This document shows positions 4,261 to 49,764 of a stretch of 64,000 nucleotides of DNA, piece after piece. This DNA comes from Polytrichum commune (lineage: Eukaryota > Streptophyta > Polytrichopsida > Polytrichales > Polytrichaceae). The position numbers and the translations under genes are program-made. The stretch is from positions 2,358,001 through 2,422,000 of the forward strand of contig OX485809.1 of NCBI GenBank assembly GCA_950295325.1, in the 5' to 3' direction. The notes beneath the pieces are model-generated. The model did no database searches and had not been told where the DNA came from. It worked only from the letters and a program-made list of their open reading frames with translations. How positions within the stretch are numbered: the stretch's first letter is position 1; the number at the start of each line of letters is the position of its first letter.

Positions 4261-4463
4261 CCTTAACTCCTTCCTCAGAATTGTCAAGTTATGTTCTGCT
4301 CTTCATGACCTGAATCTACATTCTTAATGTGAATAAGTGCGAGGCAATCATACATGCATTGCATATGAAAATTCAGATGGCAGGTACACGGAACGTTGTA
4401 TTCTCATAGTCCACATCACCTTCGACTCCTACATCTAGTCTTAATAAGCAATTGATCCATTAC

Positions 4464-29712: not shown

Positions 29713-30513
29713 CTACAAGCACAAAGAGAATTTCAGTGAAACCCATGGATGGGGAGAACCGACAACAGCCCGTCGCAGGTGAACCAGTTGAGTTTGAGAT
29801 GTAACTGGCTGATCATGAAGTTCAAGACGTCAGGAGAACTGCCCATTGTTGTAGAGGAATGTAAAGAAGATAATACCTCAAATTAATAAGAGAAAAACCG
29901 ACGGATGTCAACATGTAACCGGCTGGACTTGGAAACACTAGGATCTCGAGCGATTATGCCCAAAAATCTCTCCGGACACTGAGTGAAACCACAAATGAGA
30001 ACTCAATTGTCGCGATTAGAGAACTACACCTGAAGTGCTTAGCCCTTATGAGACTAATAGCCTGAGTTTAATAGGCACTTCAATTTGCTTGCCCAAACTG
30101 AATTTATTTCTTTTCAATGTCACATATCACCTTCTGCACGCGTTGCAACCAGTGTTGGTATGGTGTACAGGTGAATGCATGGTATTAGTGATCAATATCA
30201 ATGATGGTATCAAAATACTTACCAGTGGGTATCAAAATTCTAGTTCCAATCAAATATCGATATTTAGTAGGTATCTCAAGGTGAGAGAATTTTTGTACGT
30301 GCCCGAGTCATCAAGGGTTGTTGTCATTGGTTTTTTGCCTCTACAAGGTAGATTTTGAGTGTCCAAATCTATTAGTATGTAAGAGTTCAATATCAAAAAT
30401 CTATCATGTAGTGGCACAAAACTAATGGCAACAACCTGTTGTTCTTGTTAATACCAAACTCAACCATTTCGATACCAAAATGATTTTACGCCCAATATAA
30501 AGATTTCTTCCAT

Positions 30514-30541
30514 AACACTATATTCGTTAATTGGAGACTTT
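30514..30541. repeat. Left terminal inverted repeat of the 17.6-kb element
   Basis: AACACTATATTCG, one variable base, then TAATTGGAGACTTT. It is followed by GGAAAGTCTC, which pairs with the GAGACTTT just before it to form a small internal palindrome. CCAT precedes it. Confidence 0.8.
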
Positions 30542-31170
30542 GGAAAGTCTCAAAATAAATTGGACCCGTAGTTTCGGATGCGAATATTGTGAACGTAGGG
30601 AACATGGGGAACAATGGCAACATAATGTTCGAAAGATCCATATGTGATGAATATATATGTTTCTAAATATAGTAATTATTTGGGGTATAATCAAAACTAC
30701 GCCAACACAATATTCCAATGTCACAAATTCACAAATATTTTTTATTTTTTATTTTGTATTGAACAAAATTAACGAATCTATAAATAGCCATCTGATTTTA
30801 TATCTAGGGACTCTTGGATGCGTATCCCAAACATAACATCTTAGCCAATTGTGGGTGAATTGAACGGCACATCCCAAACGCAACAATATTAAAATAATTT
30901 GACAGTGTGTATAAGAAAATGCAAATTAGCATCTGCAATATAATTATATAGTTTGGACTCCACATCCGTAAACACAAACATATAAAAAACATTTGATAGC
31001 GCATGTGAAGTTGGATTCCACATCCGTAAATCAATACAATCATGATATATAATTGTAATCTATAAAATTGCTATAAAATGTGTCTAATATAGTATTCGAC
31101 CCCAATGTCATATATTTCATGAAAAACCAAGACACATTTCAAATAGTTGTGGTCCAACCCTACGTCAATA

Positions 31171-32703
31171 TCATTCTCCCTCTTCATCTTCAGCTTCATC
31201 TTCAGCTTCATTTCCATTCTCGACATCGTTTTCTGCAGCAGCAATACGTGCCAAATTGTCTTTGGCAAAATCTATATGTTTTTGGGGAATGGTCATTGTC
31301 TCTGATTTGGAACCTTTGCGTGGTTTCCAAGCACAAAGTATGGTATCTGTGTTTATCCATATTGGTTCGTATACTGAGTCCATTGTCCATTTGAAACCTT
31401 TTTTGGTGTCCCACCCTAAATATGTGCGGAGCACATTTTGATCTTTGGTGCTGGGACGGCAATATTCCACCTCAATTTGATGAAAATTTGGGCTAGTTGG
31501 AACAAAATTTGGTGATGACAATGCTTTTACCAACCAAATCGGTTTAGGGTGCTCCTCATCTCCAGGACGTACGAGGATCATATACCCTTCGTAGCAATCA
31601 ACAGCCACACGAAATGATGGAGCCGGACGATTACGAGCTGGGCCAACATAATGGTCGTCCACTACGAACTCTTCACGGATGTCCCCATTGTCGAAGAACA
31701 TGGCCTCAGATTCCACGATTGTCACTCGGCTTTGTGGCCAAAAACCTTGTGTCAAACATGAATGTGTTTCGACATCGGGTGCTAGCAATGCTGAGCGAAT
31801 GCGATCCCAGTACGTAATCAATGGTTCGTGGGTATCCCGAACACGCCTTGTGATGTCTTCCTCGCACAATTCTTTCCAATATTGGATGAATCCGGATATA
31901 CCTTTGATGATTTCTGGTCCATTCCTCATGGGGTTGGGTTTGCAAGGCTTCGGCTCCCCATCAAGTAGCATACATTTGCCCTCTTCGTTTTGGCGCCAGA
32001 CGAGTATCCCTTCTTCTGGACCCCAATCCGGGGAAGTGCACAAAACTTTGAATTGCATGGCCGGCAGACCATCATCACGCATATAGAATCGGAATTGTTG
32101 AGCCTTGGTATGGCCCACTAAGCGGTTACCTCCCTTAAGAATGAATGGTTCGATAAACGCTTTGAAATCGGGCACTTCTTCAATCAAATGCGGGATGACT
32201 GGCACATTATCCAAATCCATGTATGATTTCATGAGAAGAGGAATCGTCGGAAAATCCTCCTCGTGCAACTTCATACTCCAACGTCCAAATGAAGCGTCAA
32301 TGTCATCATGCGTGTGGCCAACCATCAAAAAAGACACAAACACTTCTTTGAAAATGCCCTTGGCTACGAGCAATGACCAAAAACAAAACACGTATCGACA
32401 TTTGTTGTCTTTGGCACAATTGTCCAGTTGCACATGTAGAGTTGGAGGCAAAGGTTTAGCAAGAACGGTTTGTTCAGGCGGTTCTTGCAGTGACGATAGA
32501 CAAACTTCTTTCCCCTCTAGCACAGCCTCATAAATCGGTGTTGTTCCACATCCAACAAAAAGAGCGCGGGAGGATGATGTTGGCGGACTCTCAAGATCTC
32601 GTAGAAGTTTTGCAAAAGACCCTACGGTATGATTGGCGTCGCCTGGATAGAAATCCAAGCCATAATGTGCATACTTGACGTCCACATGGCCATGTGCAAT
32701 CAT
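31171..32703 (-). pseudogene. DUF7869-like transposon protein, 3' exon
   Basis: The exon resumes at 'MIAHGHVDVKYAHYGLDFYP' and encodes about 510 residues: 'NHTVGSFAKLLRDLE', 'LHVQLDNCAKDNKCRYVF', 'VFVSFLMVGHTHDDIDASFG', 'WSMKLHEEDFPTIPLL', a long C-terminal part and an acidic tail. The QLDN...HTHxDID block is the hallmark of DUF7869 (name from memory), a family repeated in plants and animals and often next to mobile DNA. The spaced Asp residues could be an RNase H-like catalytic set; that is my inference. The intron acceptor expected before MIAHGH lacks an AG (reads ..TCAT/GT), so splicing may be lost. The frame is otherwise open to the stop at 31171. Confidence 0.7.
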
Positions 32704-32801
32704 ACATGAATTAAGACATACAAATGAGAAGTACATTCTAATATCATATATGATAAGGAAATTCAATTTTTTCGCAAGCAGGCCAAGAAAATGAACAAAC
32801 A

Positions 32802-32822
32802 TTTACGGACGTACATCCGTAA
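32802..32822. repeat. Palindrome copy in the DUF7869 gene intron
   Basis: TTTACGGACGTACATCCGTAA is a degenerate copy (21 nt, centre changed to GTACAT) of the TTACGGACGCGCGTCCGTAA family. Half-sites ATCCGTAAA also occur near 30966 and 31023, close to the element's left end. Confidence 0.75.
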
Positions 32823-32874
32823 CTCTTCATAATGAGTATGTGGGTGCGCAAAAAAAATATGAAAACCAACGAAC

Positions 32875-34279
32875 CTATGACAGATATTGGGAGCTTGAAA
32901 TATCCATCTGTAGCCTTTATTTTCCGTGCATAACAAGGGCACGCAGTCTTCGCATGGTCCATTTTGTCATGAATGATTGTCAAAACCTCATTCGGCCTCA
33001 TTATCGATAATGCGCGATTCTTGTAGTAGTCTTGACGGTGTGCCTCCTGGTTGTTGACATGCTCAATGTATTTTCATTGATGTCTATTGTGCGACTCAGT
33101 CCCTATTGGATGTGCATCTCGAAGGCCCTTATATTTCTCACAAGCAGAACACCTAGCAAACTTATCCCCAGGCCTCTTCGTAATGTACTCTGCAAATTGT
33201 TGATTCTTGATCACACTCAATTTTGACAACGAAATCGGCCCACATCCAGCCTTTTCGCCAACCTCATTAACATCCATAAGTATGTTCTTCCATTTTGTCC
33301 CTGTAGGCAAAACCATCTGGACAACCTTTTCCCCCGACGGCGGAGTCCGTGTCTTGTGTGGCATCGCATCCGCTAATGGCATAATGATGGTTGATAGTGT
33401 TGCAGCCGCTTGGAGTGTTGCCTCCCTGGGCTTCTTTGTACCAGAGTTGCCATGGAACCGAGAACGCCGTCCTTGCAGCGAGTAGTTCCGGAACCTATAA
33501 AAATCTGCCTTTGAAATAGCATGTATAATGTACCATGCCGTGCAACATACCTCTATATTTTCCAAGGTCACAACCTTACGACCTTCGGCATCAAAGTGCA
33601 TGTTGCGATGGACTTCAAGTTTCTTTGCAGATCGCATACGAAAGTCCGCAAGCCACATCTCTTGTCTCAAAGATTTGATTTTGTCACGGGGAAATAGTTG
33701 GCAACACCTCTTTGCACAACAATCCTTTGTTGCTACGGACCTAATAGATGTGTCTCCCAATGTTAGATCTCGACGACGTTGCGTGGGTTCACGGGGCACG
33801 CGAACGGAATCATATTTACGCCGACCTTGTCTAGGACGCATTGTGGCGAACAAATCCTTTTGTATTTCCTCAAAACGACGGGCATGATTCCACAAGTTCA
33901 CACCATCGTGAAGAACACTTCGCAACGGCCATCGACGAAGAGAGAATCTCCAACCAGGAGGTACTTCTAAAGGATTCAAGGAGTTCAAAATGCACACCCC
34001 AACATCTTCCTCCCCAAGGGGATTTGCATCAATACAATCCGTAGGATTCGAGTTCCGACAAACACCATCGGCCACGGGGACACCACATCCATTGACTAGG
34101 ACAACATCAAGATCAATCCACTGTTCCCGCGAATAACCCTCACATGGTGGTATGAAATCATCCTCTGCATTTGCGACATCAATTGTAGTTTCCCGTTCCA
34201 TGACACCTTCAAATTCGCTACCATAGCTTGACGATTCCGAAGAGAACTCAAATGCACTATCACCGACGTTGGAATCCAT
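32875..34279 (-). pseudogene. DUF7869-like transposon protein, 5' exon
   Basis: The start is the Met of MDSNVGDSAFEF at 34279, just after an acceptor-like CTTGTAG. The N-terminus is acidic. A Cys cluster follows (CCAKRCC...F..DKI), then 'ADFRMRSAKKLEVHRNM', 'CCTAWYIIHAISKADFYRFR', 'MPHKTRTPPSGEKVVQMVLPTG', 'FARCSACEKYKGLRDAH' and 'HDKMDHAKTACPCYARK', ending in 'KLPISVIG' at a GTTCGT donor. An in-frame TGA at 33074-33076 interrupts 'SHNRHQ-KYIEHVNNQEAHR'; a Trp codon (TGG) is the likely original. Together with the 3' exon this is one protein of about 980 residues. Its intron (about 32704-32874) contains a copy of the palindrome. Confidence 0.7.
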
Positions 34280-34418
34280 GGCCACTACAAGTGATCCAAA
34301 TGAAGAGTATGTCAAAATATCCCATTCAATAAATGTCATGGATAGTCATAATGCTTATTGTCAATGAAACACAATGTGAACAATAGTGGATTTCATGGCC
34401 TGGAAACAAAGACACATT

Positions 34419-35057
34419 GGTATACGAACGCGCGTTCGTATACCTCCATGTAACAACATTATTAGTGCAAGCACACACGTATACAAATTCCTTTATTTGT
34501 TCATAGTCGGCGGACAGGTCCAGACAACAAAAACATGACATGTTTATGGACGCGCACCCGTAAAACTCTTCGTGCTCAAAGAGGTCAGTAACATGCGCAA
34601 ATGGTTTCGCAAACTATACAAAATAGGTATACGGACGCGCGTCCGCAAACATCCCAATGTCAAAAGTCAGTGGTGTCCAAGACACACAGAGGTTTAGGGA
34701 ACCAAAATGTCCATGTGCCACGGACACGTATACCCAGGCCTGACGACTATGCATTTGAAGAGGTTAACATACGCGCTTCCTACTGTGTTTTATCAATGTC
34801 AAAATATTATACTATGACACATAGGGTGATGTAAGTTTAGGATTTAAGGATCTTATACCTCCATTGACCGTACAGTCTCAATGTAATATTCTACATGGCA
34901 CATGGTCGAAATTATGGCACAAGAGGTTTGCAGGTTTACGGACGCGCGTCCGTAAATCTCTCTGGACGTCATTATTACCACTAAACCCGTAAACGATCAA
35001 GGCAAGAAAGGATTAATGCGCCCGGAGGTTTAAGGTTTATGGACACGCGTCCGTAAA
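34419..35057. repeat. Dispersed palindromes upstream of the DUF7869 gene
   Basis: Copies lie at 34419-34444 (26-bp perfect palindrome with an ACGAACGCGCGTTCGT core), 34543-34566 (degenerate), 34627-34648, 34935-34956 (22 bp, perfect) and 35036-35057. All share the ACGxACGCGCGTxCGT core, while flanking DNA is unrelated from copy to copy. They lie in what should be the 5' UTR introns or promoter of the left gene. Confidence 0.85.
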
Positions 35058-35157
35058 TTTTCAGGACAATACAGTCTCGTTGGCAGACTCACATAGCAAG
35101 TGGTCATGATGTCAGTTCAGGTGCAATGCCGAACTATGGTTCCATAAGGTACGTAGG

Positions 35158-35664
35158 CTTACGGACGCGCGTCCGTAAACCTCATTGTACATGAGTAATA
35201 CCTAAAGTACAATTCTCAAAGCAATAGATATCCAATTAACCAACAGGTTTAAGGTTTACGGACGCGCGTCCGTAAACCTCATTGTACATGAGTAATACCT
35301 CAAGTACAATTCTCAAAGCAATAGATATCCAATTAACCAACAGGTTTAAGGTTTACGGACGCGCGTCCGTAAACCTCAGTGTACATGAGTAATACCTCAA
35401 GTACAATTCTCAAAGCAATAGATATCCAATTAACCAACAGGTTTAAGGTTTACGGACGCGCGTCCGTAAACCTCAGTGTACATGAGTAATACCTCAAGTA
35501 CAATTCTCAAAGCAATAGATATCCAATTAACCAACAGGTTTAAGGTTTACGGACGCGCATCCGTAAACCTCAGTGTACATGAGTAATACCTCAAGTACAA
35601 TTCTCAAAGAAATAGATATCAAATTAACCAACAGGTTTAAGGTTTATGGACGCGCGTCCGTAAA
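35158..35664. repeat. 97-bp tandem array, one palindrome per unit
   Basis: Palindrome starts fall at 35158, 35255, 35352, 35449, 35546 and 35643, exactly 97 bp apart. The spacer (TGTACATGAGTAATACCTCA ... CAACAGGTTTAAGG) is nearly identical in every unit, so this is a satellite-like array and not a CRISPR. Two palindromes carry single changes (GCGCAT; TTTATGG). Confidence 0.95.
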
Positions 35665-36870
35665 CCTCCGCGATTTGCGGCGCCATAATAGGAACCTTGC
35701 AACAGGAACGATACCTGCCATAAACAAAAAAAAATCAATCATACTAAGTGCAATCCACATAAAAATTGGCTCCACTAATGGGTTTAGAGCTTGGAATTTA
35801 GTATTTGGGGTATAAAAGGTCCATTGCAATAGGATCTGTACCTGCACAAAATAAACATCCAGCACGCTACAAGGGTCCAAGCAGCGCAACCCACATCTGA
35901 GATGCAAAAAGAGTCCCTTGGTGGGGGGGATGTCCCCTTAAGTACTCATCGTTTTCCCTTGGATCCGTTTTCCAACATAGGATACTAGCCACCAACTACG
36001 TCCTATAAATAAAAACCTAACATTACTACATTCCATGTGCCAGCCTTACAATGGAATGTGTATTCATAGTAGACAACATGCATAGACCATGAGTCCACAT
36101 AATGACAAAGCAAAAGGCATCTACATATTTATGGTGGACAACAAAGAAAATTGGCTAATAAGATATGAACATTGAGCATTGTTGAGGGGGGGTTTTAATA
36201 TTGAAGTACCTAATATTCAAAGTTCATTGTAGAATTAGTAGACAAAAAATTATAGTATCGTGTAAAACATTAACCACAACAACAACAATAGTACATGGAG
36301 AATAAAAATACATGTCATTCAAAATTAAACTAGCCTCTATTTTATTGTTTTGCATACGATGTAATGATATTCACTCCAATATCATGTTATCTCCTCTCAT
36401 CTTGCATTTAATATCGTAATTACATTGGCCACCACCCTACCATCCAACCCGTTTAATTTACCCACCTTTACACACCTATATATTATTGTATTAATACGTA
36501 CACAAATTTTGAGCGCCTAGAGGCCATGAAAGTAGCACATCTATTGTCATAGATACTATGGGTTGCATTAAAATCAATATTGTCAATTACCTCTCTTAAC
36601 CTTAGGGCCCCCTTCAATACATCAACATTTATTTCAAAAAAACTAATACTAGCCTTCTTCATGTACTATACGTGAGAAAAAAACCAATTTTCGTACCCCA
36701 TGTACATTATCTACAATAATGACTCAAACAATAGCAATTGTTGTTCCAAGTACCATTATGAGCCCAACAAAGCATAATGGAAAGAAGGGGAGGGTGGGGT
36801 ATCCAAATATTATTAAGGCAAGCAATATTAAGTAGGTGACAGAAGGGGGATACTCTCAGTAGTTCATACG
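35665..36870. other. Probable 5' UTR exons of the left gene, then AT-rich DNA
   Basis: On the minus strand, TTTGTGCAG/GTACAG near 35840 and TTTATGGCAG/GTATCG near 35716 are acceptor-like. They bracket short stretches resembling the non-coding 5' exons of the right gene. No coding frame is supported. 35950-36870 is AT-rich without a recognisable gene. Confidence 0.35.
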
Positions 36871-36873
36871 TGG

Positions 36874-36900
36874 TACCCTAAACCCTAAACCCTAAACCCT
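36874..36900. repeat. Interstitial telomere-like repeat
   Basis: Nearly four tandem CCCTAAA units, the Arabidopsis-type plant telomere motif. A shorter run (about two units) is at 8738-8753. Both are too short to be telomeric; telo-box promoter motifs and repair patches are common explanations. Confidence 0.85.
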
Positions 36901-37198
36901 ATAATCGCCCAACCCTAAACAAACACGAGGACATAGTGCAAGCATGGTTAACTGAATAACTCCCAATACATGTCAAGGCTTAAGTGGAAGTAATTCAAAA
37001 CTAATATATGACTACCTTTAAATTTTGTAAAATAAAATCATAAACATTTCAAAAGTGAAGCAAATTTATGGGTAACCTTACCTTTCATTTTTTTAAATCT
37101 TTCTTTGGCTGGGTAAAATCTACCCCTTAGAGGCAAGTACAAGATTTGGCTGATACTTGTTATCCTTTGATGTGAGCTTAAGATAGCATTATTCAAAT

Positions 37199-37333
37199 CC
37201 ATAACAATGTTTTGTGGGATTGATAGTATTTTATAAAATATTCCTTTATATTCCCATATTAAGAGTGAATGTGGGAATATGAAGGAATATTTTGTGGGAT
37301 ACTATGAATCCCAGAAAACAATCATGTTATGGA
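37199..37333. mobile_element. Foldback MITE-like hairpin (~135 bp)
   Basis: The left arm starts CCATAACAATGTTTTGTGGG and the right arm, reverse-complemented, starts CCATAACATGATTGTTTTCTGG. The arms pair over about 58 bp with mismatches around a short centre near 37262. It has no ORF, and no clear TSD was found. Confidence 0.6.
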
Positions 37334-37802
37334 CTTCAATAATGTTATGAATGGAAAAATCCACCTACATTATTAATATGATGTCGTTGTTAAATTGTCC
37401 AAACATTACATCACATAGATGGATTTATGTTGTAAGCCATATTTTACCATTTGCTTTAAACCTTTACTTTTGATTAAAGGTTTTCAAGATCATATATTGG
37501 TATTCTATAATCGAGTACTTAACACAACTTACCACTGAAACAAAAACTCCAGTATAAACAAGTTTGCTACTACTTATAAGCGATAATACAAGCTCAGGCC
37601 TCGGTGTGGAAAGATTGGATGAATCCCGAAGGTTGTGTAATGTGCAAGAGGGATGCAAATTCAACACATACCCATTCGTTTTGTTTTAAAACAAGCACCT
37701 AGTATGTGTGGAGATACAGAATTAATCCGTAATGTTGTTTAAGATATTATAAACATATGAATTCAACCCATATCTCGATGTTTCGGTTTTGTTAATTGCG
37801 TT

Positions 37803-38048
37803 TCAACTATGCTTAAATTTAAATATCATGGATAATGATACTCGCATCAAAGCATCCAAAGTGTCCAACTTCAATGAAGTTTGCAAGTGGCTCTTGATAG
37901 CATAATTTAGGTTTGAAAATCCCCTTTCACAACTTATTGCGATAATTGAGGGAGTCACAAGTATGACATGGCAAAGTTTCATGAGAATTTGTGGCCAATT
38001 GGTATATTGTCCCAATTGCATTTGAATCCCACCTTTGAGAAGAAACAA
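37803..38048 (-). pseudogene. hAT transposase C-terminal dimerisation fragment
   Basis: The 81-residue frame contains 'WPQILMKLCHVILVTPSIIAISCERGFSNLNYAIKSHLQTSL' in pieces, the hAT C-terminal dimerisation pattern (P...A.SERGFS..N.IK...R..L....L..L.RV). No catalytic region is found nearby. It is a remnant of an hAT element nested in the 17.6-kb element between its two genes. Confidence 0.7.
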
Positions 38049-38919
38049 ATCTTATACAGAAGTTAATCAACAAGAAATATATAGTCCCCTCCATACATGC
38101 TACAATACAAATGGTATTTAGTTTCTCTCATTGTTTGGAGTTACAAAATGCTTTCTTTTTATTATTATTGAAGGGTTTTAATTGTTGACAATGACATAAT
38201 ATACAATGAATAGTTATAGCATTCCAAACAACTAAATATTAAGCGATACTACTTACAATATTTAGTGTACTAGTAATTTAAAGCCCGCTTACGCTTATGG
38301 TCATATAGGTCCCTGCAATTATGTTGACTATTGAACCTACATGGTTATCATACTTTGAGCATTGAAATTCAATATTTTTTGGTTTGCAAGTGTTTTTGGT
38401 ATCCGTTCTTGGAGTCAAACCACATACCACTCAAACGAATAATGTTGGTCAACTTGGTCCTATTTGCCAAAGCTACAAATGAGATGTCTCTTTTTATATT
38501 TGGGTGCAAGCATGGTAAAGTGGACCAAAATAGTGCTTTGCTATACTAAAACCATAATTTTTTTGGTCAAAGGCCTAAAAGTAGTAGCAAAGAGTTATTT
38601 AAATTGGATTTTTTTTATGATGACCTCTATTGTTGTGTTAAATACACAAATGTAGAATATCAAGTTGAGATCTTCAATACTTAGCATCAAAAGTGATGCT
38701 CAAAAACAAATGGTTGAGTCTGGTTTTGGATGTAGATTTCATGACCTTAACCAATTTGGAGTTAGAATTTTTTTTATATTCCTTGAAATCATTATCTACT
38801 TGAGGGCATCACCACAAAACTTTGTAAAAAACCATCAATTTAATGTAATTTTATCATATTTTAAACAAATTTTAGACAGTCACTTATTCAATATCACCTA
38901 CTTGCACGCCACTTGCACC

Positions 38920-39120
38920 GTCTTCTAAAATAGGTAGACTTTTCTTGGAATTCTTTTTGTCATCATAAATTGCTTGGCTTTGTAGATCAAGATGTTTTTA
39001 AAATGTCTATGGTTTATTTCTTCACAAAATTCAAAGTTAGTACATAAAATTGAATCACTTTCACTTAACACTAGGCATGGATCAGGAGTTGTCCACTTTA
39101 CCGTGATTGCACCCATTTAG
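38920..39120. repeat. Dispersed repeat, inverted copy of 23560-23790
   Basis: The reverse complement of this segment matches the GGTAAAGTGGAC...GTGAAAGTGATTCAA...CAAGCAATTTATGATGAC order at 23573-23745. It lies just upstream of the right gene's promoter repeats and has no coding capacity. Confidence 0.7.
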
Positions 39121-39298
39121 AGATGGATTTAGTGTGACTTTTAACTTGCCTTAGCATAAACATAAGATGTTATTATGACATATGATAATAACATCAACGA
39201 ACTAAGTATAAATCACACAAATAGACTAGTTTATTGAGAAAGATGAGAGTCTATACCACTTGTTGTACCAGTAGGGTTATGCCACGTAAGGGTTTAAG

Positions 39299-39364
39299 GT
39301 GGCGTTTGGGCGCGGGGTTGATGTGACGTTTGGGCGGGGGGTTGATGTGACGTTTGGGGTCGGG
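39299..39364 (+). promoter_or_regulatory. 24-bp GC-rich tandem repeats with TGACG cores
   Basis: Three head-to-tail units begin at 39299, 39323 and 39347: GTGGCGTTTGGGCGCGGGG, GTGACGTTTGGGCGGGGGG and GTGACGTTTGGGGTCGGG. Two carry TGACGTTT, a TGA/bZIP-type core. They lie about 60-100 bp before a TTTTAGGGTTT telo-box and the pyrimidine-rich 5' leader of the right gene, so they are probably upstream promoter elements. Function is inferred from position and sequence only. Confidence 0.5.
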
Positions 39365-39419
39365 ACACCTGGAGGCCCTCTTTTGTTTTAGGGTTTCATA
39401 CTAGCCAGCTCCTCTTCGC

Positions 39420-39860
39420 CCTCCTCTTCGCGTTTTTGTTTCGTGCTGTTGTTGCTCTTCGTGTTATTGTTGCTCTTCGTGTTGTTGTTGCTCTTCGTGT
39501 TGTTGTTGCTCTTCTCTTGCTACTATCTTGCTTCTCTTCACACATTGCTACTATCTTGCTTCTCTTCACACATTGCTACTATCTTGCTTCTCTTCCACAC
39601 ATTGCTACTATCTTGCTTCTCTTCCACACATTGCTCTTCGTGCTCTTGCTGCTCTTCTTCCACACATTGCTCTTCGTGCTCTTGCTGCTCTTCTCTTAGT
39701 TCTCTTAGTTCTCTTGCCTCACACACTTAGTTCTATTAGTTCTCTTACCTCACAGACTTAGTTCTCTTACCTCCTACTTCTCTTACTGCTCTTCATGCTC
39801 TTGCTGCTCTTCTCTTCCTTCTCTTCCTTCTCTTGATGCTCTTCCTTCCCATTATTGCTC
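39420..39860 (+). repeat. Pyrimidine-rich minisatellite leader (CTCTTC-type)
   Basis: Successive short arrays occur: TTGTTGCTCTTCGTGT (four units), GCTACTATCTTGCTTCTC with CACACATT (four to five units of ~28 bp), CACACATTGCTCTTCGTGCT (two units) and TTCTCTTAG. All frames look Leu/Ser-rich and are low-complexity. The position suggests a long pyrimidine-rich 5' UTR of the right gene. Confidence 0.75.
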
Positions 39861-40302
39861 CTCCCATTCTTGCTGCTCTTCTCATTCTTGTTGCAAAACC
39901 CATTCTTGCTGGTCAATTGCGGAGGCGCCTCAGAGCGTGAGTAAGTTTCTTGCATGCTGCTGCCCATTAGGATGCTCTAGGAGTACTTTCAGTTGTTGCA
40001 AGGTTTTAGGGTTGGAGTAGTTTTCCCCCCCTTTCATCTTGAAGCATGTGTTTTTGACAATTCAAAATGAGTAGCTTCAATTTGTAGTTCATTGTTTTTT
40101 TTGCATACATATCAAAATGTTTCAATCTGATTTATGAGCAACTTGTTGTAGACTGTATTGGAGTACTTCTAAATGTTGTTCTTCCATAGATGATTTCCTT
40201 AGAGAGCATTGAAAGAGTATGCGACAACAGTTTCATTGAATCATGCATGTGTACATTGAATTACTAGAGGTTTGTAACCTGAATTATATTGTAAATTTGC
40301 AG

Positions 40303-40590
40303 TTGGTCCTACCTGTAGCACAAGGAAGAGGTGTGGTTTAGGAGCAAACATTCTACAAAGGTAAGAATTTCTATAACATTGCAATTGCATTTTGTATGAT
40401 TGCGTTGTTGTGGTTTAGGGCTTAAGGTTTGCTTGAAAACATATGAGCTACAACAACACTGAGAGCAAGTGAGATTCCAATTTCAATACTTTTTTAATTC
40501 CTTTGGCACTTTTGATTGCAGAGTCTGGTATTGCAGTGCAGAGCCATATTGCATTCGCATTTGCTGATCAAAACCATATTGGAAGACAAG
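40303..40590 (+). other. Two probable non-coding 5' exons of the right gene
   Basis: TTTGCAG/TTGGTC to AAG/GTAAGA gives exon 40303-40360. GATTGCAG/AGTCTG to AAG/GTAAGC gives exon 40522-40590. Neither keeps a useful reading frame. The next acceptor (TTTTTGCAG) directly precedes the ATG at 41345, so these look like spliced leader exons. Confidence 0.5.
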
Positions 40591-40658
40591 GTAAGCCTCC
40601 GCAAAATACGGAATCACCCCAAATATTTAAATTTAGAATAATAAGAAATTCCTTAAAG

Positions 40659-41286
40659 TTTACGGACGCGCGTCCGTAAATTTTAGGGACATTTGTGCGA
40701 GTGAGAAACAAGACACTCACACAATGTGTGCAGAGGTTACGGACGCGCGTTCGTAACTTCCAGAGATTTAAGTAGGATGATCTTCTCCAGCATAAAATAT
40801 TTGCAAAGTTTACGGGCGCGCGTCCGTAAACTAGGCAAACCAAAGTGAGAATCCATCATATAATATATGTGAAGAGGTTACGGACGCACGTCCGTAACTT
40901 CTAGAAAGAAAATTCACCTCTTAATATATTAAAAAGTTTACGAACGCGCGTCCGTAAACTAGGGAAAGCAAATATAAGTAAGAAAATGCTTTTCTGAGAA
41001 AGCAGATCCCTTTCTAAGAAACTACATCCCTTTCTATTAGACCAAATCCCTTTCTATCATATATGTGTAGAGGTTACGGACGCGCGTCTGTAACTTCTAG
41101 AGATATTATATACACAATGTCATATAAAATATTTAAGAAAGTTTACGGACGCGCGTCCGTAACCTCTTCATATATTTGAGTATGTAGTGTACGCGCTATG
41201 CGTATTCACTACAACTGGATGTTTTCATTTGAATATATAATACCTAGATGACAGAATACGCAATCTTTACGAACGCGCGTTCGTAT
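40659..41286. repeat. Cluster of eight palindromes in the 5' intron of the right gene
   Basis: Copies start at 40659, 40737, 40809, 40877, 40937, 41073, 41142 and 41265. Two flavours alternate at first: AAGTTTACG...CGTAAACT and GAGGTTACG...CGTAACTTC. The core ACGGACGCGCGTCCGT varies by single bases (GGGCGC, GCACGT, GTCTGT, GAACGC), and changes in one arm are often not matched in the other. The cluster ends about 60 bp before the start codon. Confidence 0.9.
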
Positions 41287-41344
41287 ATTAGTATCTTTAT
41301 CCATTGACCACAATACTAACTTGTTGTCTATCTTATTTTTGCAG

Positions 41345-42637
41345 ATGGCATCTAAAAAGAGACCCGCAATTGAGATGTTCGCAGAGGCTCTCATTCCTCC
41401 GCTGCCAGAAGCTATCAAAGACATCAGCCCCAACGACCACTACAAGCCACAAGATGACATTGTAGATAATTGGACAGTACTGGTAGAAAAAGACGAAAAA
41501 GAGATATTTGTGCTTAGATTTGCCTACCAAATTAAGACGGACATAGATGATGCGGAGAAGTGGCTAAAACTTAAATCGTGGACAGTAGAGTGTGCAGTGG
41601 CCCAAGGGGATTATGTAGTAATTGACCTTGAGAAGAAAGAAGATCGAGTCACATTCATTTTGCACGAATCTTACCATCCCTTTAACAAAAATGAGTGTGA
41701 AAATGGTAGTCCCGATGCGGCTTGCTTCAATCTCCAGACGGAGTTCCAAGACTATGCATGCAATGCACCTTGGACGGGTAAGCGGCTTGGACGACTCTTG
41801 AACAATGTTACAAGAGTGAATGGGGCCTTGCTAGAGGCCAGAAAGGGGAAGGAGAAAAAGAAACAAGTCGTTCCTGAACGGCCCAAGCGTGTCCCTAAAC
41901 CTGTGCCGGAATCCTCAAGGCCCTCGCAGAGTGGTGCATCAAGGGGGAGCAGACAGACGAGTAAACGCTCTCACTCGCAGATGGAGTCATCAGGGCTAAC
42001 AGAGGGCCCGGATGTCAGCTCAACACTCACTGTCGCTCCTCTCCTTAAAAAAGGTCAACGTCCTGACGCCGAACTCTCCACAAAGATATTCCAAGAGTTC
42101 GATGAGAAGACAAAGGGTTGCTGGCCGCTTGGCAGGTATTTCACTTTCGACGTAGACGTCTACAAATGCCACAAGGGCACCGAAAGTATGAATACCAGAG
42201 CGAAAGAAGAGAGCAGGGTATGGTGACAAATGAACAACATCATGAACAACCCCAAATTTGACAGGCAGACGATTTGCGTCACACCTAAGGATCCTATCGT
42301 TGAAGTGAACGAAAAAAATTGGCCCATTCTCAAGAATGGAGAGTTCTACATAATCGACGGCCAACATAGTGTGATGGCTGCAAAAGCTCTCCTTGAAGAT
42401 GACGAGTGGAAAAGCCCATTGAAAGAAACGATACGATATTGGAAGGCATTCGTTGTGCATTCCAAGGACTCGAACCAACTAATTGCAATTTCTGCTTTCA
42501 TGAACCAAGGGAATAAAGTGAGGCAGTTCGAGGCTTCATGGGCAGCTAACATCGTGGCTGGGAGGACCTTGTGGGTGGAGCACGAATGTCCCCCAAAAGA
42601 AAGAGACAATGCAGTCGTCAAGAACCCCAAATGGCAG
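41345..42637 (+). pseudogene. Right gene, exon 1: N-terminal domain and DGQHS (ParB/DGQHR-like) motif
   Basis: ATG at 41345 follows an acceptor, TTTTTGCAG. Residues ~1-165 form an unknown domain ('MASKKRPAIEMFAEALIPPLPE'-type start in the track of the frame, 'WTVLVEKDEKEIFVLRF', 'PWTGKRLGRLLNNVTRVNGAL'). A basic Lys/Ser/Pro linker follows. From ~300 the frame reads 'DRQTICVTPKDPIVEVNE', then 'FYIIDGQHSVMAAKALL', 'WKAFVVHSKD', 'RQFEASWAANIVAGRTLW'. The IDGQHS-xxAAK turn resembles the DGQHR/ParB-N fold; this is fold-level resemblance only. An in-frame TGA at 42224-42226 (codon 294) separates the halves; CGA to TGA explains it. The exon has 431 codons and leaves at CAG/GTATGT in phase 0. Confidence 0.65.
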
Positions 42638-42655
42638 GTATGTCACTCATATATA

Positions 42656-42677
42656 TTTACGGACGCACGTCCGTAAA
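42656..42677. repeat. Palindrome in intron 42638-42769 of the right gene
   Basis: TTTACGGACG-CA-CGTCCGTAAA in a 132-bp intron with good splice sites (CAG/GTATGT and CTCTTGCAG/AC). Only the central CG step is changed, to CA. Confidence 0.9.
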
Positions 42678-42769
42678 CCTGGCCATTCTCCTCCCACTGC
42701 TTCAATTCTTTGAATTTAATGTCTGCTAATTTTGATGTACTGATTTCTTGCAATTCATGCCTCTTGCAG

Positions 42770-44079
42770 ACATTCAGCAATGCCATCTTGACAAAGTTCT
42801 CGAGTATAGACATGAAGACAAGCGGCATGAAGACAGTGCATGAATTAAAGGGTGAACTCAAGCTCATCACTGCAACAGAGGAGACGTGGGCAATATGGTT
42901 GCGACTCTTCGATGCCCACAACAACGGGGACCTTGTGAATCCAGATACGGAAAACACGTACAAGAGCGATTCAAAGATTAAGGTACCACCAATCCTGCGA
43001 GAGTTCTTTCGTCCCCTCCAAGGATTGATGGACTCGGAGCTGTACAGGGCAGCAGAACACATTCTTCTAGAAACTCCTAGAAGAACTCTGCCCTATCCCA
43101 AAATCTTTCTGAAGCGGCCGAAGCATATGAAGCCATCCATGTACCATATAAAGGAATGGTGCGATTACAGAAAGAAGAAGACCATGGCTGTAAGGGCGAT
43201 TAGCAAATTGCTACCCACCCACAACCTCATTAATAGTGATGGTGAGATCGTGTGGGAGAATTGGAGGAAGCTGAAGAGTGAATACCACATCAATGGCGTC
43301 TCCATGCGAGCTTTGATAAGAGGGGCATCATCCTTCCTAGCCCAACGATCCAGGAGGAACGAAAAGAAGGGATCTATCGACGAGAGGGAGGCAGGGTTGT
43401 ACGTGAACTTTCTCGATAGGAAAAAGAAAGCGAAATTCGGAGGGTTTGCAAGATTCTGCACGGTCACAAAGGGCATGAAGTTCGGCACATGGGACACCCA
43501 TGCTTCAAGAGCCTCTGTGAGAGATGACCCCGGGGTTGCCCTTTCGCCATTTTTTATTTTCGTGCAATTCCCGGAGCTTGGAAACAAGACGTTGCGGGAT
43601 CACCCTTCTACGACCCCTTCTTAAAAGCCTTTAAGAGCTATCGCTCGCCTGCCCTCTTTGAGCCTCATGTGTGGTTATGGATTGTAGAGCAAGAGAGGTC
43701 CACATCCATTGTCCATCTATACACATCAACGATGGACCTCGAATACGATCTGTACCACAGCACCTACATCCCGGCGAAGACAGAAGGGATCACTGTTATT
43801 CAAGAGGCAAGAGGGGTGAAGCAAGTGGGAGCCGTGCAACTTTATTTCTTGACACGCAAGTCCTCACCAACTGGGCGATTGCCTATTAAACCACACAGGA
43901 AAGTCTACTCGTTGCCCCCACCGCACCCCAAGGAGCTTGTGGAGGAGACAATGCATGCCGTCTACCCGGCGTTCGAGCTCCGGATGGACTTTTATATAGG
44001 AGTCTTGAAGGCTTTAACTGCCATGAGTGAGACAGTTTACAACGTCTTCGGAGGCACGAAGTTTATGTATGCAGCATTG
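42770..44079 (+). pseudogene. Right gene, exon 2: unknown domain, one-base frameshift
   Basis: This exon continues in phase 0 from exon 1: 'TFSNAILTKFSSIDMKTSG', 'ILREFFRPLQGLMDSELYRAAEHIL', 'YHIKEWCDYRKKK', 'LYVNFLDRKKKAKFGGFARFC', then after a frame change 'WKQDVAGSPFYDPFLKAFKSY', 'HVWLWIVEQERSTSIVHLYTST', 'VYSLPPPHP', 'AVYPAFELRMDFYIGVLKAL'. The change falls in the T-rich run near 43545-43560. At 1310 bp the exon is one base short of the 1311 needed for phase 0 at both ends, so one base was lost, or missed in sequencing. I do not recognise the domain. It exits at TTG/GTGAGT. Confidence 0.6.
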
Positions 44080-44125
44080 GTGAGTAGTTGTTTGTCTTTC
44101 AACCCACCTATCTTTGCATAGTTAT

Positions 44126-44239
44126 TTTACGGACGCGCGTCCGTAAAAACCCAGTATCAGGTGCATGTGAATTTTACGACCGTGCGTCCGTAACATTGTC
44201 CAACTTTTGAGTGGTGGTTTTACGAACGCGCGTCCGTAG
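44126..44239. repeat. Three palindromes in intron 44080-44313 of the right gene
   Basis: Copies lie at 44126-44147 (perfect core), 44173-44193 (ACGACCGTGCGTCCGT, degenerate) and 44218-44239 (ACGAACGCGCGTCCGT). They are spaced about 46 bp apart inside a 234-bp intron with canonical splice sites and phase 0. Confidence 0.9.
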
Positions 44240-44313
44240 AATGTGTTGGCATCTGGCCTCATTTATATGTCATCACCACAATTGTTCCTATCTAATTTTC
44301 TTGTTTGGTGCAG

Positions 44314-45726
44314 ATGCTTGGATTGCAGGTGAATTCTTTTGTGGAGGATTCCGACTACGATGACGCCCATACTCACAGGGTTATTGCCTCCAAAATGGAT
44401 ATACAGGACATCATGGACGTCCTTACACCCCATCCTGCGGTGCCTCTTGCTTCTAGAGAAGAGGCAATGCCCGGAATGGAGACAGACCCTGAAGAGGACC
44501 AGGATCCCAGTTCCCCAAGAGCGCAGCCCTCCACACAGGAGCCTTTACACGGCCTTGTTCGGGACCCAATTAATCCAAGTGTGTTCCTGCTGGGAACAGA
44601 CGACACGGATGCGCAAGAGGCACGCGTTAACTTCACTCCGATAAGGGTCCCACATACCCCTGTTCTCTCACCTTTTGGGACTCCCACCTCTCGAGTTGGG
44701 TTTCCTTCAACTGCGGGTCCATCTCGTGCTGCAGGTGTTATTGCGGAGAAGGATGTGGACCTTGCGGCAGAAGGCGGATGCACGGCTTCATCTGGAGGGG
44801 GGTCTCAACATTCAGATCTACCCCCTATGGAGGGGAGGGATGTGCTGGAGTTGATATTGAGGCCTGATATCTCTCTATATCGTGAGAGTCGACGAAAGAG
44901 GAACAAGACACCATACAACGAATACCCTGAAGGCGCGGTCTTGGAGCTCTCCGATGAAGACGAGGATGAGATTAGGATCCACAATGCCATCTCTGCCTTG
45001 CCTACCGAACCTGGCAAGGTGAAGAAAGAGCCGATGTCAGTGTCCGAATTGGACGAGAAGATGGAGAAGCGAATGAAGGAAGAGCTTGACCAACGGCTTC
45101 GAGAAGCTAACGAGGAGCACGCCAAAAAGATGGCCGCCATCCAAGCTGAGATGGAGCAAGCTAGATTGGAGTCTGCTCGAAGGCACGCTGATCTCATGGC
45201 TCAAAATCAGCAGTTCTTGGCCTAGAGCCAACAATTCATGAGCTTGATGCAGAGCTTGCAGGCAAGGCCCCAAGTTGTATATGCAGCTCCCGAGGCGGGC
45301 ATGTCGATGCCCACCACTCTCATGCGGCCTCCATCTAGTAGCCATGCTGTTTATATTCCCGAGCATGCTTATCCAGCTCCCACGTTGATTGTCCCGCCTT
45401 CTCCCATTGTTGTCGCCACTCCAGAGCCCCCCTCTCTTCCAACAGGAGTGGAGGAGATACCGGCACGTGACACGGCGGGTGCCGCCGAGAGAGATGTCAA
45501 TGAAGGCCACGCCCCCATCGGCGATGAAGATGTACATATGCGGGGCAGCGAAGACTCCATTGATGAGGATCAGCCTTACGTGGATACTCAAGGATCGCAA
45601 GCGGCTGGAGACACTTTGTTGGTGGTCGAAGATCTAGACAATTTTGCGGACGCGCGTCCGCATCCTGTGCCCATGACGGGGCCAGGTGAGGGAGGCACTG
45701 CTGGCGCGGACCTCGCCCCTGAAGAG
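44314..45726 (+). pseudogene. Right gene, exon 3: acidic/Pro-rich region and coiled coil
   Basis: A phase-0 exon of 471 codons. It has an acidic start ('VEDSDYDDAHTH'), a Pro/Ser-rich linker with 'TPIRVPHTPVLSPFGTP' (SP/TP sites), a basic 'RESRRKRNKTPYNEYP', an acidic 'LSDEDEDEIRI', then a coiled coil ('VSELDEKMEKRMKEELDQRL', 'NEEHAKKMAAIQAEMEQARL'). The tail is Pro/Ala-rich and ends acidic. An in-frame TAG at 45223-45225 lies between NQQFLA and SQQFMSLMQSLQ, a Gln-rich stretch, so CAG to TAG is the likely change. A copy of the palindrome lies within the coding sequence at 45642. Donor GAG/GTAATC is phase 0. Confidence 0.65.
45642..45663. repeat. Palindrome within coding sequence of the right gene
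   Basis: TTTGCGGACGCGCGTCCGCA has the same core with TGCG/CGCA arms. It is translated as Phe-Ala-Asp-Ala-Arg-Pro and keeps the frame open. Compared with intronic copies, both arms carry the compensated T-A to G-C change, so the palindrome is preserved. Confidence 0.85.
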
Positions 45727-45753
45727 GTAATCAACCTTTGAGCATGCCTCCCA

Positions 45754-45775
45754 CGTTACGGACGCGCGTCCGAAA
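45754..45775. repeat. Palindrome in intron 45727-46067 of the right gene
   Basis: GTTACGGACGCGCGTCCGAAAC: intact core with one arm changed (GAAAC for GTAAC). It lies 28 bp after the donor GAG/GTAATC. Further degenerate copies occur near 47397-47419 in the 3' intron, with a half-site at 47183. Confidence 0.85.
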
Positions 45776-46067
45776 CTTCCTTGTCTGCCTCCTTCGTGGC
45801 GTGTGTATATTATCGAGTTCAATCCTCGACTTCGCCCGGCGGGTGGATACAATTTTGTTAGCATAGATTCCATTAACTTCAACAGATATTTTTTGCGACA
45901 ATGTATATTATTCACCAAATGTGTATCACCAATTACATTAATACCAATTTTTCAACTAGATGGTTTGGATTATTTTTGGCCTTATAATTCTTTTTTGAGT
46001 TCATCCATGCTTGTCAATTGGTTTTCTTGAGTAATACCATTTACCTAGATAGAATGTTCCATCACAG

Positions 46068-46835
46068 AGTCCGTCGGAGATATGTCGCAACCCCGCGGGA
46101 AAACCAAGCGCGCCCATGAGGAAACCGTTCATAATATTTGACCTCAATGGGGTGCTTTGTCATTCCAAACATATCTCGAATAGTGCGTCCAAGGGGCCCT
46201 TCCGTAGTCCACAAGACATGGATTACGGCGGACAATTCGATACTCTCATAAATAAGAAGGTTGTACGTGCCCGCCCCGGCTTGAGGAGCTTCCTTCGTGA
46301 GGTCCTTGGCTTCGCACATGTCATCATCTGGAGCTCTATGCTCATGGACAACACGAAGGCCATCGTCGGTTTCCTTTTCCGAGAACTCGCAATGCCATGC
46401 TTGCTTCTCGGTCAAGAACACTGCGATGACCTCTATGACCGTAGTGGCAATATTGTACCCAAGGTCGGAGGAGGTCGTGGGCCTCAATTCTTAAAGGTCC
46501 TGAGGAAGAACCTCTGGGTGGGCGTCCCTATGTTGGAGGGGGTTCCCCACGGTTGTTGGCCCACCCCGGATAACACACTCCTCATTGACGACAGCCCGGC
46601 AAAGAGTATTCTCAATCCCCCGGGCAATTGCATATTCCCGGATCCTTGGGAAAGCGATAGAAATGACAACCTTCTAGAGAGTGAACTAGGACCCTACATT
46701 AGGAGGCTTGCCTATCACCCCGGAAGTGTCCCGGATTTTGTGCTCTCCAACCCAATTGGCAATAGGCCTCTAGGCCCACAAGATGAGGAATTTAGGAGAT
46801 TGTACGGCTACGCTAGACTCAATAAATTAATATGA
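46068..46835 (+). CDS. Right gene, exon 4: FCP1/NIF-like HAD phosphatase domain
   Basis: Acceptor ATCACAG/AGTCCG joins exon 3 in phase 0. The 255 codons hold an FCP1-homology HAD domain: 'FIIFDLNGVLCHSK' (motif I), 'VVRARPGLRSFLREVLGF', 'HVIIWSSM' (motif II), 'CLLLGQEHCDDLYD', 'LWVGVP', 'NTLLIDDSPAKSILNPPGNC' (motif IV with Asp-Asp). Catalytic FCP1 proteins have DxDxT; here the second Asp is Asn (DLNG), as in many plant FCP1-like paralogues, so activity is uncertain. The frame is intact and ends at TGA 46833-46835. If upstream lesions are ignored the four exons make about 1,594 residues ending in this domain. An internal Met at 46116 could start a separate HAD protein. Confidence 0.75.
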   Translation, partial: SPSEICRNPAGKPSAPMRKPFIIFDLNGVLCHSKHISNSASKGPFRSPQDMDYGGQFDTLINKKVVRARPGLRSFLREVLGFAHVIIWSSMLMDNTKAIVGFLFRELAMPCLLLGQEHCDDLYDRSGNIVPKVGGGRGPQFLKVLRKNLWVGVPMLEGVPHGCWPTPDNTLLIDDSPAKSILNPPGNCIFPDPWESDRNDNLLESELGPYIRRLAYHPGSVPDFVLSNPIGNRPLGPQDEEFRRLYGYARLNKLI

Positions 46836-46927
46836 AAACTTTGACAATTTTGGGTTTGTACTTGGACTCTCCGTGTAAATATCTAACCTTTCTCCCCTTA
46901 TTTTTGTAATGTATTCTTGTGTCTTAG

Positions 46928-47812
46928 TTGCCTCACCAAGCACCCCAAAGTGTCGTCAATGGCATGTCTGCATCACGGTCAGGCCCCACATCTCCTTCCC
47001 TTGGTATGAGCGACGTTGCAATGCCTTCACTATTCCAATATTCGGCCGTCGATGCTGCCTCTGCTGTTGATTACTCCAAAGACTCCGGGTTTGAAGACGG
47101 AGTCGTGGATAGCCCTCCTGCAAAGGTTGCAAAACTCAATTACGCTCCAAGTCCATCTCCATCTCCCCTCCGCAGTGAGAAGCACGTCCGTAACCCACGG
47201 TCGACCAGACGCCTTTGCATGGATGAACCCCAAATTGATGTCCCGGCGTTTACGAGCGTCCCTGTTGTGCTTGTGGCCCCCCTCGATGTCCCAGAAGCTC
47301 AAACCATCGCCCCGCAAGCCAAGGTGCCCAATTATTGGCATTCTCAAGTTTTTCCTTCATGATTTCCGTGTATTAGTGCATTTCATATTCTTGGGTTTTT
47401 CGGACTTCCATCCGTAACTTATACTAACCCACGTCATTATATGTATTTATGGTCATTGTTTCAGACCCCAATACACATGAATGTGGGCCGTTCATCCTCG
47501 ACTTCGTCATTGGATAGGCGAACACTGAAGACTGCTTCTTGCGAGTCTGATCGTTGTTTGGCCCTACGGAAGAGTGAAAGACGTTCGTTTTCCCAATCGC
47601 ATTCGTATTCCACTTATTCGGTAGGGGGTCGGCAAATATGGGCAAATGGCACATATTCGGGGTCGACAAATACACAAGGTTTTAGCCGCGGACCCGAGAT
47701 CTTTAGAGCCATGGAGGCCATGAAAGCAAAAGAACGTGAAACGGCCATAAATGCTAATAATAGTATTGCAAAAGCAAAAGTAGTGAGTCGTAATCATGAT
47801 CCGAACGTATAG
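46928..47812 (+). CDS. Ser/Pro-rich 3' exons of the right gene or a small separate gene
   Basis: Frame 46928-47350 ('GPTSPSLGMSDVAMP', 'YSKDSGFEDGVVDSPPAK', 'PSPSPSPLRSEKHVRNPRS') is followed by 47465-47812 after acceptor GTTTCAG, in matching phase 0. It ends 'GPEIFRAMEAMKAKERET'...'SRNHDPNV'. The donor between them (CAA/GTTTTT) is weak. The HAD exon ends in a stop with no donor, so these exons need either alternative splicing past the HAD exon or their own start. The last exon and its 3' flank recur inverted at 49765-50310. No known domain. Confidence 0.4.
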
Positions 47813-48093
47813 GCTATATTAACATACAGGTAGTTGTGGAATTATGTTTCTAGGACTTTCGCCTAATATTGGATATTCCACTTGCATTTTGTACTTCAAC
47901 CCCTATTCAATAAATATGATATTGATTTTCCATATGCAAATGTTTTCATATATCCCATTTTCTTATTTTTATGTGTAGTTCCATGCATTTGAGTCTCTTA
48001 TTTGTTTCCAAAATTGGGAACATACCATATTTTTAGTGTTTTCCTTCCTACAAATGTGAAAGCCACGTCCTTAAATAGTCTCAAAATCAACAA

Positions 48094-48121
48094 AAAGTCT
48101 CCAATTACCGAATATAGTGTT
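48094..48121. repeat. Right terminal inverted repeat of the 17.6-kb element
   Basis: AAAGTCTCCAATTACCGAATATAGTGTT in plus orientation (written as two blocks: AAAGTCTCCAATTA and CCGAATATAGTGTT) mirrors the left end with one mismatch. CCAT follows at 48122. Confidence 0.8.
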
Positions 48122-48565
48122 CCATGGTATATAGACCCAAATGGTATCAAAAATAGATATATTGTCCAATACCCACACCCTACTTGGTGATTTTTTTTAC
48201 AAGATAAATCCACATCATAGATCATAACAATATTCAGTTGACTGACCAAGTTGGGTGGGGTTGGGAATGTCATGTAAGGCGCTAGAATTATATCTTATGG
48301 ATGCTTCTGAATAAGTAGATTCAACTTGAAAAAAGAATGAGATTCAGGTGAAGCGTTGTCACTAAATATAATTCGAATGGAACAACTGATACCAACTACG
48401 TAATGTTATGAAACATGACTAGTATCATAAAAAAGACAATACCAAAGCAGCAACTGCATGACACATCGCACCATCACGATCATCAGCATTTTAATTTTAT
48501 AAAAACAATTGTGCTCAAATGGACCCTAGCCCAAGAAGAAGTCTGTTGAGATTGCAAGGTCATAC

Positions 48566-48779: not shown

Positions 48780-49764
48780 GGCTAGGGTCTGAATATCACT
48801 CCCAGATTGCTGCACCCACAAATTCATCCCAGCTCTTGACAGGATTGAAATTCTGTCGGAGCCAGAAGAATACATGCCATCTTGGACAATCAAGTGACTA
48901 TCGCGTCGGCCTTGCAAGTCTTCTTCCATCGAAACTCGCTGCCTGTGAAGTAGTTCTTCCAAAGATGAGCCAATCCTCACACAAATGACTCAGAGAAGTA
49001 TACTATCTATTTCCGAATGCAAAGTAAGCTACAGTGGTTCGAAGTCGTGCCAAGGATATGATGTAATTCAGTCAGGATCTTCAATATATAGAGCATGAGC
49101 TTATATGTGGCGTGCACAAAGTGGCTGTTACATAGAAATTCACATGGGCCGGATTTACCCACGTCCCCAGCAACATCACACCTCAACGTGATTCGATATT
49201 TTGAAAAGCTGTAAAAGCTTGACAGATGATGGGCTACCTGCAGGTGCGTGAAATTTGTGTCACTTTCTCAGCAGGCAGATTGTGGGACCAGCGAATCATA
49301 TGTAATGATAGTCCACATATGGCTTACTCATGTTGTTTAGGAAGGTCTTATGATTAAAGAAATAAGTTGAGATTCGGGTGCAAATAAGGTTTAAATGCAC
49401 AGGAAGGAATATAACATAGAATTAAATATAATATATAGTATTTGTAGTCACCATTTCTACACATGATTGTATGTTTTCCAACATTTCAAAGTGGGCAGTG
49501 CATATTAGGTTACTTTTGAGCTTTGAGACACATTTTCGTTATATTATATTTTGACACAATTTTTAAAACTTTAAAATTACAAGGAAAACCTTGTACACAG
49601 ATCTATGCTATGTCAAGATGCTAGATTTAAACGTCAATTCTAGTTTTATTGTGACTTGTAACAAATTTTATTCTTTGTGTCATGAGGAAAATATTTGAGT
49701 AGTGAAAGATGTTCATCTTCAGCCATCTAATTTTTTGGGGGAATCTTCAATGAGTATCTTGGGA

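Follow-up and report, generated by a model that had tools for sequence, protein, structure and literature searches.

What moves a transposon that ends like a CACTA element and carries no TNP2, the transposase that such elements normally encode? The question is raised by a 17,608-bp element at positions 30514-48121 of a 64,000-nt stretch of the Polytrichum commune genome (contig OX485809.1, positions 2,358,001 to 2,422,000; the whole stretch is referred to below as the window). Our analysis indicates that the element is very probably a cut-and-paste DNA transposon with a DUF7869 protein as its predicted DDD (three-aspartate) transposase, a 4-bp footprint, and palindromes of its own. Its inverted arms, 28 bp each, are 96% complementary, with CACTATATTCG exact in both, and are enclosed by a 4-bp target-site duplication (TSD), as follows.

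30510-30513, no strand: left TSD copy, CCAT (sequence and TSD statistics)
30514-30541, plus strand: left terminal inverted repeat, AACACTATATTCGTTAATTGGAGACTTT (arm comparison and genome-wide end search)
48094-48121, minus strand: right terminal inverted repeat (arm comparison and genome-wide end search)
48122-48125, no strand: right TSD copy, CCAT (sequence and TSD statistics)

The mirror-image 28-bp ends with one mismatch, the CCAT on either flank, and two divergent gene sets inside had been described in an earlier reading of the window that was made from the letters alone (the sequence-only reading), and all were confirmed; the gene sets are a DUF7869 gene on the minus strand, and blocks with an IDGQHS motif and a NIF/HAD domain on the plus strand.

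The ends are those of a large repeat family. A search of the 408-Mb genome with the 26-bp end returned 1,527 forward and 1,537 reverse matches (3,064 in all, with at most 3 mismatches), while the reversed-pattern control returned none. Among the 100 ends listed, six pairs lay ca. 250 bp apart and correspond to miniatures; one miniature used as a query had 1,151 candidates in the genome, and the 40 that were scored were 93-100% identical to it. The long copies read have AA as their two outermost bases and most miniatures (L001-L006, L041-L060) have AT, so that AA-CACTA in the one size class stands against AT-CACTA in the other. Since these bases precede CACTA, CACTA is not the extreme terminus of the element.

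An exact 4-bp TSD was found at 12 of 13 long copies, compared with 0.85 for shuffled flanks, and at 15 of 26 miniatures, compared with 0.91; no other length was enriched at that boundary in either set. The long copies comprise the window element and 12 fetched pairs. Two of the ten long copies fetched (L021/L022 and L039/L040), in which one end was absent from the fetched stretch, were excluded, and six single-ended stretches (L015-L020) were left unpaired. The miniatures comprise the six from the end list and 20 of the 39 others scored, a set biased to well-kept copies. For the 15 miniatures whose TSD is exact, the joined flanks were then compared with the genome, and 12 junction-spanning matches were fetched. 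All 12 of these unoccupied paralogous sites (7 loci) align across the target with no gap inside the 4 bp, which are identical in eight. Because the sites align through the target, the element boundary lies outside the two bases that precede CACTA. The sequence-only reading had named, as support, many copies with the same two ends and a single conserved TSD length, and both were found; an empty site that shifts the boundary, which it had named as contrary evidence, was not seen among the 12, all of which set the boundary at the 4-bp target.

The minus-strand gene is the candidate transposase.

31171-34345, minus strand: DUF7869 gene, candidate transposase (Pfam PF25273; blocks conserved in family B, described below, at 31219-32709 and 32867-34154; stop at 33074-33076)

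It matches DUF7869 with an E value of 2.7e-39, and its stop codon at 33074-33076 was missing from all ten other copies read. Three acidic motifs, I-x-D-x-M-D, Q-x-D-N, and H-T-H-[E/D]-D-x-D, are conserved, with exceptions, across the aligned DUF7869 proteins. In a more distant DUF7869 lineage (L061, L062, L064), the spacer that separates the first two of these motifs is shorter. No relatives were found in viral contigs by two single-protein scans, which reach close relatives only, or in prokaryote genomes by one such scan.

The genome holds 1,490 candidate DUF7869 loci, and all 150 that were scored exceeded the Pfam cut-off. A DGQHS exon lies in divergent orientation within 15 kb of 62 of 80 scored DUF7869-exon copies, and within 45 kb of 73; randomly placed DGQHS partners gave 0.24 at 15 kb (121 of the 150 partner rows were used, the 29 at 57-58% identity being left out, and the random control employed partly rounded contig sizes). 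Proximity to the ends was scored on contigs C1 and C2 and on the initial 38.9 Mb of C3. Of the scored genes, 30 of 80 DUF7869 copies and 73 of 150 TNP2 genes lie there (643 TNP2 candidates genome-wide). A perfect, inward-pointing end was found 541-884 bp 3' of 17 of the 30 DUF7869 copies. Within 5 kb of the 73 TNP2 genes there was no perfect end at all, and the numbers of TNP2 genes with such an end within 5, 10, 20, and 30 kb (0, 1, 3, and 6) show no clear excess over random placement (0.4, 0.8, 1.6, and 2.4). A hidden Markov model (HMM) built from nine TNP2 proteins of the same genome detected none when run over all six frames of the element, with a best E of 0.17; as a positive control, it found the TNP2 gene at 4419-5777 of the window, itself among the nine, at ~1e-222. 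Thus, the absence of TNP2 and the linkage of the two genes, both claimed or expected in the sequence-only reading, were borne out, and related DUF7869 loci, whose lack of these ends would have spoken against it, do carry them. The TNP2 (Transposase_21) open frame at 4419-5777 is on the minus strand and unconnected with the element. Another TNP2 gene, at C1:37091003-37091620, separates the DUF7869 (37084330) and DGQHS (37110464) matches in one stretched copy, an arrangement suggestive of a CACTA element inserted into that copy.

Two further families, A and B, were compared with the window element. The DUF7869 exon of family B is ca. 65% identical to that of the window element over 497 residues, the ends are nearly the same, and the TSD was 4 bp in both copies read. 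The DUF7869 protein of family A is ca. 50% identical over the core and 32% further on, and its ends, ATGGGGATATTAACTAAAATGAG, are unrelated to those of the window element; an exact 4-bp TSD was found in nine of ten copies, which are 22-28 kb long (against 0.91). As family A combines unrelated ends with the same TSD, the 4-bp footprint goes with the DUF7869 gene, and the resemblance to CACTA is incidental and confined to one branch. Identity between two copies is 99.5-99.8% over ca. 12 kb in family A and 96.3-99.1% in family B; such near-identical pairs imply that the lineage moved recently. Divergent D/NGQH and NIF/HAD exons stand beside DUF7869 in all three families. Next to one family B copy, Gypsy-like polyprotein frames were recognised by eye (L075:3219-5881).

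The plus-strand exons were treated as one predicted gene, with introns placed from frame breaks and from the blocks conserved between families.

41300-42673, plus strand: right gene, first conserved coding block, with IDGQHS (stop in the window copy at 42224-42226)
42758-44085, plus strand: right gene, further conserved coding blocks (conservation between families)
44296-45633, plus strand: right gene, weakly conserved open frames (open frames, family comparison)
46119-46832, plus strand: NIF/SCP-type HAD domain PF03031, with DxNG (Pfam and family comparison)
46928-47812, plus strand: right gene, C-terminal coding parts with weak conservation in family B (family B comparison)

The HAD exon of the window element matches NIF (PF03031), a HAD phosphatase family, with an E value of 3.2e-14. 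In family B, the second gene was matched by the window DGQH exon at ca. 44% and by the HAD exon at ca. 40%; in family A, it has an NGQHT motif and a NIF/HAD domain (E 4.4e-11). All three families have DxNG as the HAD nucleophile motif (L100:1827-2648, L102:2432-3274, and window 46119-46832). NIF-type phosphatases usually have Asp where this motif has Asn, and the substituted residue suggests altered or lost phosphatase chemistry. The DGQH region matched no Pfam or NCBIfam family above the cut-off, with DUF6551 at E 0.085; we take its motif to resemble that of DGQHR/ParB-like proteins. The stop at 42224-42226 precedes the DGQHS exon, in a part that is commonly open (474 codons) in other close copies. 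With a stop in each gene, the window copy is decayed, and stop-free copies are present elsewhere.

The new part of the finding is that each family has its own palindrome of ca. 20 bp, present in 22-37 copies per element. The sites in the window element are the following.

32803-32822, no strand: palindrome site between two DUF7869 coding blocks, in a predicted intron (motif scan, conserved blocks)
34422-35663, no strand: 20-bp palindrome TTACGGACGCGCGTCCGTAA in an array of 11 sites (at most 4 mismatches), part of it a 97-bp tandem repeat, immediately upstream of the DUF7869 gene
40660-41286, no strand: second TTACGGACGCGCGTCCGTAA array, 8 sites, immediately upstream of the DGQHS gene
42657-42676, no strand: palindrome site where the first right-gene block ends; of the 26 sites, no other overlaps a conserved block
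44127-44239, no strand: three palindrome sites between coding blocks, in a predicted intron
45644-45775, no strand: two palindrome sites between coding blocks, in a predicted intron

The 26 copies in the window element (at most 4 mismatches) compare with none in the remainder of the 64-kb window. The family B palindrome, TTTGGGTCGATCGACCCAAA, occurs 37 times in copy B2 and 31 times in copy B1 (at most 4 mismatches), and that of family A, CCACGGGTGNNCACCCGTGG, 22 times in a copy (at most 3 mismatches). First-order shuffles (five for the window element, five for family B, and ten for family A) contained none, and each palindrome is missing from the elements of the other two families. Genome-wide, there are 1,026 sites of the window palindrome and 1,661 of the family B palindrome, with no matches for either control. 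Among 50 distinct window-palindrome sites listed, 49 lie at most 10 kb from a gene of these families; the single site farther than that from a DUF7869 or DGQHS match, C1:25983579, could be an element remnant.

The placement of the palindromes is also shared. In all three families the main clusters lie just upstream of the start of each gene, and more sites lie between coding blocks. In the window element and family B, for which avoidance of coding blocks was scored, conserved coding blocks hold 1 of 26 and, in B2, 2 of 37 palindromes, though they cover 35% and 38% of the element. In family A, eight palindromes are upstream of the second gene, four upstream of DUF7869, and four between open frames. 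A literature search, to which Repbase and bioRxiv were out of reach, found no bryophyte or palindrome precedent and no paper on DUF7869.

Two further features of the window touch the element. An inverted, decayed piece of its right end, 82-87% complementary and with CACTATATTCA, lies at 49755-49982, beyond the right boundary, and is a second, broken copy. Within the element, a brief ACCCTAA run at 36875-36901 is a telomere-type repeat.

We propose that the DUF7869 protein, via its three acidic motifs, acts as a DDD transposase on ends of the form AA/AT-CACTATATTCG, and that it would also move, in trans, the abundant ca. 250-bp miniatures with the same ends. A protein encoded by the element, most likely the product of the second gene, may bind the palindromes and keep the element's own copies transcribed or unsilenced, as VANC does in Arabidopsis; this part is drawn by analogy and is put forward tentatively, at clearly less than even chances. 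The decayed window copy would depend on copies elsewhere. A stronger version, in which the DUF7869 elements are a lineage of their own and the second gene is a family-specific self-recognition factor that switches on or unsilences only its own kind, appears rather doubtful. If the transposase assignment is correct, DUF7869, an uncharacterised Pfam domain, gains a concrete and testable role, that of a transposase with a 4-bp footprint, and an account is given of a large repeat family whose ends, taken by themselves, would place it in CACTA.

Several observations weigh against this proposal. As to the footprint, no exact 4-bp match was found at 11 of the 26 miniatures and at one of the 13 long copies (L011/L012, whose ends were paired by proximity alone); the TSD of one family A pair differs by one base; four of the 12 unoccupied sites differ from the 4-bp target by 1-2 bases; and a 1-base gap lies 2 bp from the target in one unoccupied-site alignment. 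As to the transposase, the Asp of QxDN is substituted in two of eight aligned proteins (L061 and L068, possibly decayed copies), and the AlphaFold model of the family A DUF7869 protein is poor, with a mean predicted local distance difference test score (pLDDT) of 48.3 and a predicted template-modelling score of 0.30. The order of strands and helices around the acidic motifs in this model fits an RNase H-like core and proves nothing; a Foldseek search with the same poor model gave no match at E<=0.001, and sequence searches of the PDB yielded nothing useful. As to the palindromes, the model of the DGQH region has a pLDDT of 40, and no DNA-binding domain is therefore identified in the second gene. 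In family A, two of the 22 palindromes lie inside open frames and four lie elsewhere, two of these within 250 bp of an end, and the palindrome comparison as a whole rests on three families. The claim of the sequence-only reading that the DUF7869 protein is the transposase of a separate lineage with CACTA-like ends thus stands in part: shared ends, a 4-bp TSD, linked genes, and the lack of TNP2 support it, but CACTA-like ends are not lineage-wide, as family A shows, and fold prediction did not establish the expected RNase H-like core.

The alternative that survives best concerns classification. The element may belong to a superfamily that has been named before, most likely Sola, or else Lanisha, a reading whose chances we consider evenly balanced; both superfamilies were compared by description only. 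On footprint and termini, Sola is the best candidate and Lanisha the second. Passages of PMC10741241 and PMC9033089 describe Sola elements as having 4-bp TSDs and very variable terminal inverted repeats, as exceeding 15 kb in some cases, and as present in the moss Physcomitrella; a DDD transposase is claimed for them in PMC10741241. The three families studied here likewise have 4-bp TSDs and differing termini. In contrast, the Sola account in those passages of PMC10741241 mentions neither a DGQH/HAD gene nor palindrome arrays. Lanisha, a cut-and-paste element proposed as a new superfamily in 2020, is attributed in a passage of PMC12730594 to a Repbase report by Maumus, McDaniel, and Carey; the same source places it in the CMCT clade (EnSpm, Mirage, Chapaev, Transib, and Lanisha), with C(2)C and H(3-4)H patterns between the second D and the last E. 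Both patterns are missing from the window DUF7869 exon, in which the element differs from Lanisha. The proposers of Lanisha are reportedly moss workers.

A second alternative concerns the palindromes, which may be binding sites of the transposase, or tandem repeats growing by slippage or recombination, and not regulatory targets; we rate this at somewhat short of an even chance. The window array is partly a regular 97-bp tandem repeat, palindromes of family B are spaced at ca. 78 bp, and the two family A sites near the ends are placed as transposase sites might be. However, the window element has no palindrome within 2.2 kb of an end, isolated palindromes occur between the coding blocks of both genes, unrelated palindromes take the same main positions in three families, and both the window element and family B show avoidance of conserved coding DNA. 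Reading every palindrome as a subterminal transposase site therefore suits these two poorly, while family A does have two palindromes near its ends.

Finally, the view that a classic CACTA element lost TNP2, carries DUF7869 as cargo, and is moved by TNP2 in trans is very improbable and was rejected, for although the ends contain CACTA...TAGTG and TNP2 genes are abundant, with one in the same window, the TSD is 4 bp and not 3 bp, two element bases lie outside CACTA, family A joins unrelated ends to the same TSD, TNP2 genes are neither enriched near perfect ends nor present inside the element, and a profile comparison of DUF7869 with TNP2 gave a probability of 0.1%, a weak negative from thin alignments on which kinship of the two was likewise rejected.

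Returning to the DUF7869 transposon with its own palindromes, it resembles CACTA/EnSpm elements in the CACTATA...TAGTG of its ends, its large size, and its two genes, and differs from them in lacking TNP2, in its 4-bp TSD, in the two bases outside CACTA, and in having a sister family with unrelated ends. Three defining features of CACTA (TNP2, a 3-bp TSD, and a CACTA terminus) were tested and none was found; the element is not CACTA. TnpA of maize En/Spm is an element-encoded regulator that acts on repeated, subterminal sites in its own element. The element described here also has repeated sites within itself, for which binding by an element protein is proposed, but most of them lie where the genes start and between coding blocks. 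VANDAL elements of Arabidopsis are MULE (Mutator-like) transposons. According to passages of PMC10741241, MULE TSDs are 7-12 bp and those of CACTA 3 bp, in contrast to the 4 bp found here. In the parts of PMC5735166 and PMC10398659 that concern VANC, its binding is placed in introns and in intergenic and terminal non-coding DNA, with targets that are often tandem repeats and differ between related elements; family-specific motifs in non-coding tandem repeats are likewise seen here, as palindromes. The motif itself is unlike, YAGTATTAY of 9 bp for VANC against a 20-bp palindrome. The likeness to VANC, the closest described design, would be one of function, and no homology is claimed. If the stronger version holds, self-recognition via palindromes would be an independent invention of the role that VANC plays in Arabidopsis, and the three related elements with different palindromes make the evolution of private anti-silencing codes testable outside that plant.

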